The notes under the pieces: model-generated
The model's database searches: none
What the model saw: the letters and a program-made list of their open reading frames with translations, nothing else
Told to the model about the DNA's origin: nothing
NCBI GenBank assembly: GCA_938049385.1
Contig: CALIBQ010000046.1
Coordinates: forward strand, 1 to 42,834
DNA: 42,834 nt
Source of the DNA: an uncultured Anaerolineae bacterium
GTDB lineage: Bacteria; Chloroflexota; Anaerolineae; JACIWP01
Direction: 5' to 3'
Position numbers and translations under genes: made by a program
Shown here: positions 2,718-14,991 of the stretch, piece after piece
Layout: each line of letters begins with the position of its first letter
Numbering within the stretch: the first letter of the stretch is position 1

Positions 2718-3953
2718 ATGGACAAGCCGTTGCCCAACATCATCTATCTCGATAACGCGGCCACCTCCTGGCCCAAGCCGGCCGGCGTGGCCCAGGCCGT
2801 TGCCGATTTCATCAACTACCTGGGCGCCAATCCCGGCCGCTCCGGCCACCGCCTCTCCACTGCCGCCGCCGAACTGGTGTATGATACCCGCTCCCTGCTG
2901 GCGGAGATGTTCGGCGCCGAGGACCCCCTGCGCGTGGTCTTCTGCAAGAACGTCACCGAGGCTCTGAACACGGTTCTGCGCGGGCTTCTGCGGCCCGGCG
3001 ACCATGTGGTCACGGGAAGCCTGGAACACAATTCTGTGATGCGGCCCTTGCGCGCCCTGGAGCGCCAGGGGGTGGAGCTGACAGCAGTGCCGGCCTCGCC
3101 GGCCGGCCTCTTCCGGCCGAGCGATTTCGAGCGGGCACTGCGCCCCAACACCCGGCTGATTGTGCTCAATCATGCCTCGAACGTGGTGGGCACGCTGGCC
3201 CCGGTGCGGGAGGTGGGTCAGATCGCCCGGGAGCACGGGGTTTGGCTGGCCGTGGACGCGGCGCAAACCGCCGGCGTGTATCCGATCCATATGCCGGCGG
3301 ACAACATCGACATCCTGTGCTTCACCGGCCATAAGGGACTGCTGGGACCGCAGGGCACTGGCGGCTTTATCCTGGGAGAACGGGTGCCGGACGATGCCAT
3401 TGAGCCGCTGACGCGAGGAGGGACGGGAAGCCGCTCCGAAGAAGAGCACCAGCCCGATTTTCTGCCCGATCGTTTCGAGAGCGGCACCTTGAACGCCGCC
3501 GGCATCGCCGGCCTGAAAGCCGGTCTGGAATTTCTGCGGCGGGAGGGCATCGCAAAGGTGCGCGCCCATGAGGTGGCGCTGACACGCCGCTTGCTCGACG
3601 GCCTGCGCGCCATCGCCGGCGTGCAGATATACGGCACGCGCGACCCAGCATACCAGGTTGCCGTGGTCTCATTCAACATCGCCGGCATGTACCCCTCGGA
3701 GGCGGCGCTGGCCCTGGATGAGGAGTTCGGCATCATGTGTCGGGTGGGACTGCACTGTGCGCCGGCGGCCCACCGGACTATCGGCACGTTCCCCCAGGGC
3801 ACTATCCGCTTCAGCCCCGGCTATTTCAACACGCCGGCGGAGATTGACCAAGCGTTGGAGGCCGTGGAAGCATTGGCCCGGCGCGCCCATACCCCTACAT
3901 ACCAGGTTGTGAATCGGGAAAGGAGCGTGTATGATGACAGAGAAAATCGTTGA
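2718..3953 (+). CDS. Cysteine desulfurase family protein (SufS-like, selenium-operon type)
   Basis: This 411-residue class V aminotransferase-fold protein is PLP dependent. 'FTGHKGLLG' carries the PLP lysine (K206), 'VDAAQTAG' (from 180) holds the cofactor-binding Asp and Gln, and 'RVGLHCAPA' holds the catalytic Cys (C347). Such enzymes pull sulfur from cysteine or selenium from selenocysteine. I chose ATG 2718 because GGAGGGAGG sits just upstream; an in-frame ATG at 2661 would add 19 residues with no ribosome site and overlaps the promoter. The 3' end overlaps yedF by 23 bases. Position ahead of yedF, DUF3343 and selD matches the subgroup typified by Enterococcus EF2568, so its inferred job is to deliver reduced selenium to SelD or to a labile-selenium cofactor. 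Sulfur-only activity cannot be excluded. Confidence 0.9.
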   Translation: MDKPLPNIIYLDNAATSWPKPAGVAQAVADFINYLGANPGRSGHRLSTAAAELVYDTRSLLAEMFGAEDPLRVVFCKNVTEALNTVLRGLLRPGDHVVTGSLEHNSVMRPLRALERQGVELTAVPASPAGLFRPSDFERALRPNTRLIVLNHASNVVGTLAPVREVGQIAREHGVWLAVDAAQTAGVYPIHMPADNIDILCFTGHKGLLGPQGTGGFILGERVPDDAIEPLTRGGTGSRSEEEHQPDFLPDRFESGTLNAAGIAGLKAGLEFLRREGIAKVRAHEVALTRRLLDGLRAIAGVQIYGTRDPAYQVAVVSFNIAGMYPSEAALALDEEFGIMCRVGLHCAPAAHRTIGTFPQGTIRFSPGYFNTPAEIDQALEAVEALARRAHTPTYQVVNRERSVYDDRENR

Positions 3954-4536
3954 TGCCCGTGGGCTGGCATGCCCCCAGCCGGTCATCATGGCACGCAACG
4001 CCATGCGGGAAGGTGCAGTACGCATCACCGTCATTGTGGACAGCGAGACGGCGGTGGCCAACGTGACGCGCATGGCCCAGAAAGCCGGCTGGCAGGTCGC
4101 CCAGGAACGCCGCGACAACGAGGTGCACCTGCGTTTGACCCCGCCGGCCGCGACTGCGGAACAGCCCCAGGAAGCCCCCGCGTCAGCGCCGGCGCCCGCC
4201 GGCCCCACCGTCCTGCTGGTGAAATCGAACCGTATGGGCCGTGGGGACGACCAGCTCGGCGAAATCCTTATCCGCGGTTTCTTCCACACCCTCACCGAGA
4301 TAGAGGATGCGCCGGCAGTTATGATCTTCCTTAACAGCGGCGTGAAGCTGACCACCGAAGGCTCACCTGTGCTGGACGACCTGCGCGCGTTGGAGGAACG
4401 CGGGGTGGAAATATATTCCTGCGGCACCTGCCTGAATTACTTCGGCCTGACGGAGTCGCTCAAAGTAGGTGCGGTGTCCAACATGTACTCCATCGCGGAG
4501 ACACTGCTTTCCGCCGGCAAGGTCATTTCGCCGTAA
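3931..4536 (+). CDS. yedF: Selenium metabolism protein YedF (TusA domain + DsrE-like domain)
   Basis: This 201-residue protein has two domains. Residues 1-70 are a TusA/SirA-like domain with the 'LACPQPV' signature (C14), which carries a persulfide or perselenide. A Pro/Ala linker (about 71-92) leads to a DsrE-like domain with 'SCGTCLNYFG' (C164, C167). This arrangement defines the selenium-metabolism YedF family. AGGAG at 3921-3925 precedes tandem ATGs at 3931 and 3934. The gene overlaps the desulfurase end and is followed 18 bases later by the DUF3343 gene. The likely role is selenium transfer between the desulfurase and SelD or the selenium-dependent hydroxylase pathway. That role is proposed from comparative genomics and is not shown by this sequence. 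Confidence 0.92.
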   Translation: MMTEKIVDARGLACPQPVIMARNAMREGAVRITVIVDSETAVANVTRMAQKAGWQVAQERRDNEVHLRLTPPAATAEQPQEAPASAPAPAGPTVLLVKSNRMGRGDDQLGEILIRGFFHTLTEIEDAPAVMIFLNSGVKLTTEGSPVLDDLRALEERGVEIYSCGTCLNYFGLTESLKVGAVSNMYSIAETLLSAGKVISP

Positions 4537-4554: not shown

Positions 4555-4779
4555 ATGTCAACGCAGTACGGCGTGGTGCTGTTCGATTCGACCCAGCGGG
4601 CCATCCAGGCGGAGCGAGCGCTCAAAGCCGCCGGCCTGCTGGTGAAGCTGATCCCGGTGCCCCGCCAGATCAGCTCGGACTGCGGGGTCTGCCTTCGCTT
4701 TCTCTGGCAGGACCACTCTCGGGTGGAGGAGGTTCTGCGCGATCACCGGGTAGCGTTCGCCGGCATCCGGCAGTTATAA
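4555..4779 (+). CDS. DUF3343 protein, putative Se/S carrier
   Basis: A 74-residue protein starts 'MSTQYGVVLFDST' and contains 'SSDCGVCLRF' (C43, C46), the Cys pattern of the DUF3343 family. In other genomes the family lies next to YedF and SelD and is thought to carry selenium or sulfur on its cysteines. The start at 4555 follows GAAGGGA. SelD begins 27 bases after the stop, so the four genes form one transcription unit. The biochemical role is inferred from neighbourhood. Confidence 0.88.
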   Translation: MSTQYGVVLFDSTQRAIQAERALKAAGLLVKLIPVPRQISSDCGVCLRFLWQDHSRVEEVLRDHRVAFAGIRQL

Positions 4780-4806
4780 TCGCTTGACAGGATATTGAGG
4801 AGAGAA

Positions 4807-5883
4807 ATGGGCGTTTCATCGTACACCATCCACAACCGCAACGGCCGGCCGGTGCGCCTGACCGAGCTGGCCAGTTGCGCTGGTTGAGCGGGCAAGACAG
4901 GTCCGGGGGACCTGGAGCGTCTTGTCCAGCCGCTGAAGCACCTTTTCCAGCCGGCCGACTTCCCTGACCTGCTGGTCGGGCTGGGATCGCCCGACGACGC
5001 GGCAGTCTACCGGCTGGACGAACAGCGCGCCCTGGTGCAGACGCTGGACTTCTTCCCACCAGTGGTGGATGACCCGTACACTTTCGGCGCCGTCGCCGCG
5101 GCCAACGCCATGAGCGACGTCTACGCCATGGGCGGTGAAGTGCTGTTCGCGCTCAACATCGCGGCGTTCCCCAGATGGCTGGATCGGGCCATCCTGGCGG
5201 AAATACTGCGCGGCGGGGCGGAAAAGGTGCGGGAGGCCGGCGCGGCCATCGCCGGTGGGCATACCATTGACGATGATGAACCGAAATACGGGCTGACCGT
5301 CACGGGCATCGTCCTCATCTCCGAACTGATGACCAAGGCCGGCGCGCGGGCCGGCGATCAGCTCTTCCTGACCAAGCCATTGGGCACCGGCCTGATCACC
5401 ACCGCCGCCAAGGGAGGCGCCGCTGAGCCAAAACACATGGAAGGCGCGGTGCAGTGCATGCTCCAGCTCAACCGCGCGGCGTCGCGCGCCGCGCGCTCGG
5501 CCGGCGTGCGCTCTGCCACGGACATTACCGGCTTCTCTCTGCTGGGACATGCCGCGGAGATGGCCGCCGCCTCGGGGGTACAGCTACGTATCTACCTGGA
5601 GCGACTTCCCATCTTGGAAGGGACGCGGCAGTATGCGGAAGAGTGGTTATTCCCTGGTGGGGCGCACAGCAATCGGGAGTTTTTCGCGCCGCGGGTGCAG
5701 TTCGCCGGCGGTATCAGCGAGGAAGAGCAAATGATGCTCTTCACCCCGGAGACCTCCGGCGGATTACTGCTGGCGGTACCGGCGGACAAAGTGGAGGTGT
5801 TTCTGCAGAACTGCCGCTCTCTCGAACAGCCGGCCTGGCACATCGGGGAGGTTGTGCCGGGATCAGGGATTGTGGTGGAATAA
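4807..5883 (+). CDS. selD: Selenide, water dikinase SelD, a selenocysteine-containing form
   Basis: SelD makes selenophosphate from selenide and ATP. The gene starts at ATG 4807 after GAGGAGAG and must read through an in-frame TGA at 4885-4887, giving 358 residues with Sec at position 27. The local sequence 'ASCAGUAGKTGP' aligns with the family's catalytic Cys/Sec and the essential Lys three residues later (K30), corresponding to Cys17 and Lys20 of E. coli SelD. Downstream, 'GSPDDAAVY', 'AANAMSDVYAMGG', 'GGHTIDDDEPKYG' and 'TDITGFSLLGHA' are standard SelD ATP- and metal-binding motifs in one unbroken frame. A standard gene caller would start at 5035 and lose the first 76 residues including the active site. 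A hairpin directly after the TGA supports recoding. A sequencing error is unlikely because the TGA sits exactly at the Sec position. Confidence 0.95.
4885..4927 (+). promoter_or_regulatory. Sec codon TGA and bacterial SECIS hairpin in selD
   Basis: TGA is at 4885-4887. The arm at 4890-4898 pairs with 4919-4927 over nine positions (one G-U), then AGGTCC (4899-4904) pairs perfectly with GGACCT (4908-4913). The apical loop GGG is at 4905-4907, and five bases (4914-4918) bulge on the 3' side. The loop starts 18 bases after the TGA and is G-rich, as expected for a SelB-binding bacterial SECIS. Pairing was done by hand. Confidence 0.85.
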
Positions 5884-14553: not shown

Positions 14554-14991
14554 TCAGGAGGTCATGCCGGCGTCTTCCCCTTCATCCACACAAAGCTCCT
14601 CGCGGAAGGAGACCGGCCCGCGCAGGATATGGTGCACCTCACAGGTACGGGCAGAGTTGTAGAGAATGCGCTGTTCGCGCGGGCTGAAGCTCGATGACAG
14701 GTGAATCGTATTTTCAAATGTAACGCCGCCCCGGCCATCCGGGGCGGTTTGCATGCGCACAACCACGGAGAAGCCGCCGGCCGGCATCCCCTTCGCGGCG
14801 GCGACCGCCGCCATGGTCAGCACCATTCAGGAGGCCAGCGCCACACCGATCAGCTCCACCGGGCATAAGCCGGCGCCGTGTTCCGCCACCTCGGTTTTGC
14901 GCCGCACCAGCAACTGCCGGCCGGCAAGCTCCACCAGGGCCTCGCCGGCCGGCGTAAGAGTCGCCCGTACCTCTCGCCTTTCCCACTCCAT
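14554..14991 (-). CDS. OsmC-family peroxidase, selenoprotein (Sec at the peroxidatic position)
   Basis: OsmC/Ohr proteins reduce organic hydroperoxides with a reactive Cys and a second resolving Cys. Starting at ATG 14991-14989, the frame reads 'CPVELIGVALAS', then TGA at 14829-14827, then 'MVLTMAAVAAAKG'. The TGA falls exactly where the family has its peroxidatic Cys ('ALAxC'), so it encodes Sec55; the second Cys is C117 in 'NSARTCEVHHIL'. Read through, the protein is 145 residues, normal for OsmC. A caller that stops at TGA would report only 90 residues from 14826. A GC hairpin with a GGTC loop follows the TGA. The gene begins 31 bases after gcvH; I see no clear ribosome site, so coupling is likely. 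Sec incorporation is inference from alignment and hairpin, but the position match is compelling. Confidence 0.9.
14797..14829 (-). promoter_or_regulatory. Sec codon TGA and candidate SECIS hairpin in osmC
   Basis: On the minus strand TGA (14829-14827) is followed 14 bases later by GGCGGC (14812-14807), loop GGTC (14806-14803) and GCCGCC (14802-14797). The loop begins 21 bases after the TGA and has the GGU motif seen in SelB-bound loops. The six-bp stem is strong, but this region is GC-rich, so the match is less specific than in selD. Confidence 0.65.

Follow-up and report, generated by a model that had tools for sequence, protein, structure and literature searches.

Predicted selenocysteine in SelD of an uncultured Anaerolineae bacterium and the likely position of its SECIS hairpin

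The selD locus and its in-frame UGA codon

The window, as the whole stretch of DNA that was analysed is called here, comprises 42,834 nucleotides from an uncultured Anaerolineae bacterium and belongs to an assembly of 3.37 Mb that is 98% complete. Table 1 lists its features. The gene at 2718 is the apparent first gene of a selenium operon, and its product also resembles the selenocysteine lyase SclA (409 bits, below the model cut-off of 525). YedF and DUF3343 proteins have been tied to selenium metabolism in the relevant part of PMC9312934. Eighty relative loci were searched for the same context and 57 had at least 3 kb upstream of selD; within 4 kb upstream of the gene, yedF was present at 16 of these loci, the carrier at 14 and the desulfurase at 12.

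Table 1. Features of the selD locus and of the other genes with a UGA at a Cys or Sec site
Feature	Position	Strand	Remarks
Class-V aminotransferase / cysteine desulfurase family	2718..3953	+	NCBIfam TIGR01977, 479 bits over cut-off; ATG at 2718
yedF, sulfurtransferase-like selenium metabolism protein	3931..4536	+	TIGR03527, 221.9 bits, cut-off 110
Putative Se/S carrier protein (DUF3343)	4555..4779	+	PF11823, 78.4 bits, cut-off 25
selD, selenide water dikinase, predicted Sec at residue 27	4807..5883	+	TIGR00476, 369.2 bits, cut-off 125
In-frame UGA, predicted to be read as Sec	4885..4887	+	Alignment partner: first Cys in the GAGCGCK loop of PDB chain 3u0o_A
Lower stem, 5' strand	4890..4898	+	Helix not conserved
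Likely SECIS core, 7-bp hairpin CAGGUCC-GGG-GGACCUG	4898..4914	+	Loop 17 nt past the UGA; within bSECIS limits
Place of the distal SECIS hairpin of most relatives	4914..4930	+	Does not form in the window
Lower stem, 3' strand	4919..4927	+	Not conserved
osmC, UGA (14829-14827) at LASUM site	14554..14991	-	Hairpin UGGCGGC-GGUC-GCCGCCG, loop 20 nt past the UGA
FdhA-like molybdopterin protein (L169), UGA in LEHQARIUHSST	G000:C23:3060-4709		Hairpin GGCCG-GUCU-CGGCC

When TGA is taken as Sec, translation from the ATG at 4807 begins with MGVSSYTIHNRNGRPVRLTELASCAGUAGKTGPGDL and continues to the stop at 5883, TGA 4885-4887 being the sole odd codon of the frame. The product belongs to the SelD family by its score above the curated cut-off of TIGR00476. 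Its N-terminal loop, CAGUAGK, carries Sec followed by the conserved Lys and corresponds to GAGCGCK of 3u0o_A; the UGA position is occupied by Cys in homologues (rows L081, L108, L110 and others), as in selenoproteins generally. The sequence-only reading had proposed that SelD is itself a selenoprotein in which TGA 4885 replaces the catalytic Cys. This was borne out, with one in-frame TGA at that SelD site and the described hairpin following it. At the level of sequence, the gene is confirmed as that of a predicted Sec-containing selenide water dikinase of a known kind, and the protein itself has no visible peculiarity. The gene, the machinery of the genome and the conservation of the site all point to Sec incorporation at residue 27. 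The standard code yields a 282-aa ORF from GTG 5035, where an automatic gene caller probably starts selD, dropping the Sec loop. The gene can thus be flagged as prone to shortening by automatic annotation.

The stem-loop downstream of the UGA codon

A 15-bp two-part stem with a GGG loop, which had been described from the sequence as a well-formed SECIS, is present in the window. In its outer part, GGGCAAGAC (4890-4898) pairs with GUCUUGUCC (4919-4927) over 9 bp, the first pair being 2 nt past the UGA, and in its inner part AGGUCC (4899-4904) pairs with GGACCU (4908-4913) over 6 bp around the loop GGG (4905-4907). The stem is more stable than dinucleotide shuffles (z = -2.87; 2 of 200 as stable) and synonymous-codon shuffles (z = -4.06; 0 of 200). 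This excess stability is not common to the genus, the congener L019 having z = -0.41, a stability that 70 of its 200 shuffles equalled. When the whole length was folded, the lower stem was kept and the upper stem slid to the register UCCGGG-GGA-CCUGGA (pair probabilities 0.95-1.0). The register with the GGG loop was the optimum only without the 5' strand of the lower stem, as under a ribosome on the UGA. Rfam gave no SECIS match, either for the window at the gathering score or for 4780-5000 with E values up to 5.

It is unlikely that the full 15-bp stem, or its shifted-register optimum, is the SECIS and that the lower stem matters in the window species. In favour of this reading, no other fold of the window sequence is as stable, and no synonymous shuffle equalled it. 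However, the lower stem was found only in the window species, the two congeners being devoid of it, and the 15-bp stem is complete in only 1 of 87 Sec rows. Covariation, the check suggested by the sequence-only reading, gave the lower stem no support across 91 distinct Sec-selD sequences. Its strands paired in 43.1% of cells and those of the shuffles in 42.4%, and of the six slid controls three paired better, up to 54.1%, so that the helix is neither conserved nor covarying. In addition, a ribosome at the UGA would probably occupy the 5' strand of this stem. The earlier description of the stem stands, while the idea that the whole of it acts as SECIS is not supported, its 9-bp lower half being unconserved.

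The functional SECIS is most likely the upper hairpin, 4898-4914, rather than the full stem, and it would be the target of SelB. As in other selenoprotein genes, it lies downstream of the UGA within published bSECIS limits, which were taken from section 5 of PMC13188914. The window and the two congeners keep the pattern CAGGUC(C)-loop-(G)GACCUG, with -11.6 kcal/mol in the window and -8.8 kcal/mol in the congeners. Of the ten codons spanning the UGA and the hairpin, nine are identical in the congeners, while the five codons before and the five after all differ. This block of codon identity is modest evidence for a constraint on the hairpin, given that longer identical runs occur elsewhere in selD. 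The genus provides two distinct hairpin sequences only (L019 and L022 are the same there), too few for covariation.

Selenocysteine and its machinery in the genome and the class

One TGA was found at the Sec site in 51 of the 53 SelD rows that cover it among 60 relative genomes; the remaining two read N and Cys, respectively. In a class sample of 396 genomes SelD was detected at E up to 1e-30 in 327, and five rows among the matches listed had no stop. SelB scored above its curated cut-off in all 16 Sec-SelD genomes tested vs 4 of the 12 Cys-SelD genomes tested (Fisher 1.6e-4, a value that ignores relatedness and refers to hand-chosen genomes). The latter group took 12 of the 14 distinct Cys rows, L093 and G050 being left out. 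A tree of 114 SelD proteins requires at least five Sec/Cys changes. The first tree had placed the window genus beside L038 and L115 (91/90), a grouping that was lost when rows were added and L115 and L108 were removed.

A reading of the UGA as a genuine stop, in which selD would be a pseudogene or would encode a shortened protein from GTG 5035, is very improbable. The ORF obtained with the standard code would be in agreement with such a protein; however, the frame is intact on both sides of the UGA, which falls in the catalytic loop and, along with SelB, is conserved class-wide.

Some individual loci deserve mention. Two Sec-SelD copies per genome were observed in L042 (positions 1534 and 2767, in tandem) and in G032. 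L155 (G050:C515) is a divergent Cys-SelD that may be a fusion, its open frame being 770 aa long, and the same genome also has a Sec-SelD. L154 (G306) appeared to have two TGA codons, the second of which precedes the start codon.

The genome that includes the window has a tRNA-Sec at C25:114160-114255 (69.2 bits; ARAGORN also calls SeC, anticodon tca), SelB at C66:8669-10564 (372.9 bits) and SelA at C57:59039-60373 (595 bits). SelA, SelB and tRNA-Sec in one genome are the mark of a selenoprotein-making bacterium. The sequence-only reading had made its claim that this organism decodes TGA as Sec depend on these genes, and none of the three was absent. The claim is supported by a complete bacterial Sec machinery and by TGA in place of Cys in SelD, OsmC and an FdhA-like gene, and the genes for Sec decoding are confirmed in the lineage of the window organism.

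The UGA of osmC sits at the peroxidatic Cys site and is followed by its own G-first-loop hairpin. OsmC looks like a selenoprotein, in agreement with its earlier naming as a further Sec gene, and is the likely second one of the window. In the FdhA-like gene, the UGA within LEHQARIUHSST is at what we take to be the usual FdhA Sec site. The hairpins of both genes have G-first loops 19-20 nt past their UGAs. A general reassignment of TGA to a sense codon (Trp or Gly), which in-frame TGAs in both SelD and OsmC might suggest, is hardly credible, as SelA, SelB and tRNA-Sec are present and the remaining PF02566 and PF00384 matches in the genome are free of stops, the sole exception being the FdhA-like gene at its Sec site.

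Hairpin positions in relatives and comparison with known systems

Most relatives carry a covarying distal hairpin, GGCGCAG-GUN-CUGCGCC, located 16 nt beyond the proximal one. It was called when at least 6 of 7 pairs formed between nt 29-35 and 39-45 (U of the UGA = 0), and rows that shared the same first 60 nt entered the counts a single time. The row L153 (G031) was dropped for an N at the Sec codon, and the pattern matches L155 (+) and L161 (-) were dropped as spurious. In the final set, the distal hairpin was found in 85 of 104 Sec rows vs 1 of 14 Cys rows (Fisher 5.8e-8, again for hand-chosen genomes and ignoring relatedness). Support for the helices was judged by pair counts with shuffled and slid controls. 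In all 7 pairs of the distal helix, changes were seen in both strands, and 87.3% of cells were paired, a level reached in 0 of 500 shuffles and in none of the slid controls. The class-wide signal of the proximal helix was weaker, with both-side changes in 4 of 6 pairs and 68.9% of cells paired, and the hairpin was complete in 16 of 104 Sec rows. RNAalifold predicted zero pairs on the 92-sequence alignment. Hairpins of at least 6 bp at spacing 33 were present in 58 of 92 Sec rows vs a mean of 7.6 and a maximum of 15 in synonymous-codon shuffles, and a further 15 sequences had a hairpin at 32 nt with a 5-nt loop. At spacing 17 the count was 15 of 92 vs 2.2 in the null, maximum 6. The 11 Cys sequences showed no enrichment at 33 or 17 nt and included a single hairpin at 32 nt with a 5-nt loop.

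The distal hairpin is absent from the window and its two congeners (the window and L019 are among the 19 of 104 Sec rows that do not have it). Since the genus lacks the distal hairpin, its SECIS is probably at the proximal position, about 16 bases nearer the UGA. Both hairpins are complete in L038 and L156, and the proximal one is the only one in the further lineages L097/L125 and L113. The evidence is about evenly poised for and against a joint reading of these patterns, in which the Anaerolineae selD SECIS has two adjacent sites (loop at +17 and +33), relocation went through an intermediate with both hairpins, and in a few lineages including the window genus the distal site was lost and the proximal one, with a G-first loop, took over; within this reading, and with the same even weight, some Sec genes would carry both hairpins and most would depend on the distal site. 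The change is given a direction by parsimony only, and no particular sister lineage is claimed. Genes with both hairpins, with only the distal or only the proximal one, and Cys genes with neither form a natural series that could be used to test how much variation in distance SelB tolerates and how SECIS position evolves.

Two Cys rows are of interest in this regard. L079 (Armatimonadota), position 3260, has TGT for TGA, SelB in its genome, and the distal hairpin, being the sole Cys row with it. It has the appearance of a gene recently converted from Sec to Cys in which the SECIS persists as a remnant; such cases have been described in part of PMC1794560. L108, position 1110, is a Cys-SelD with the LAQVLRP peptide as in Sec forms, encoded by codons that do not form the distal hairpin, which makes it a natural control.

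Taken as a whole, the locus is very probably explained by a Sec-containing SelD made through the ordinary bacterial route with the upper hairpin as SECIS. The stem-loop just past UGA 4885 would recruit SelB-GTP-Sec-tRNA(Sec) and Sec would be inserted at residue 27. The selenol of SelD would then lead to selenophosphate, with which SelA would make more Sec-tRNA(Sec). In most relatives the distal hairpin, whose loop lies 33 nt past the UGA, would act as the SECIS, and the window genus, which is without this hairpin, would rely on the proximal one. A second close SelD was not found in the window genome. Because of this and of the chemistry, an autocatalytic selenium loop can be proposed, in which SelD would feed back on its own synthesis. 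Selenophosphate synthesis appears wholly selenoprotein-dependent, a situation that brings up the old question of restart after selenium starvation. The idea of autoregulation is not new, as Guimaraes et al. 1996 already raise it as a question in their title.

The SECIS of E. coli fdhF has the loop GGUC at a spacing of about 18 nt, and the hairpin of the window selD shares with it a small G-first apical loop and a similar distance from the UGA. The loop GGUC itself is found in the window OsmC, whereas SelD has GGG. The selD hairpin also fits the bSECIS consensus as given in section 5 of PMC13188914 (3-nt loop, 7-bp stem, first loop G, spacing 17 nt, -11.6 kcal/mol), although the full optimum takes a shifted register once the lower stem is included. 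Sec-containing SelD, or SPS2, is recorded as a selenoprotein in many species in the pertinent parts of PMC4561486 and PMC13188914, and the 2015 survey gives Sec in 19% of the prokaryotic SelD genes detected in its reference set (PMC4561486). As in these known proteins (TIGR00476), a single UGA replaces the catalytic Cys codon in the N-terminal loop, a bSECIS follows it, and SelA, SelB and tRNA-Sec are in the genome. No report of two alternating SECIS positions in selD was found in the literature covered, mostly open papers. Apart from the SECIS position, which differs across the class and has some novelty, this is an ordinary Sec-SelD: the loop is 17 nt from the UGA in the window selD vs 33 nt in most sampled relatives.
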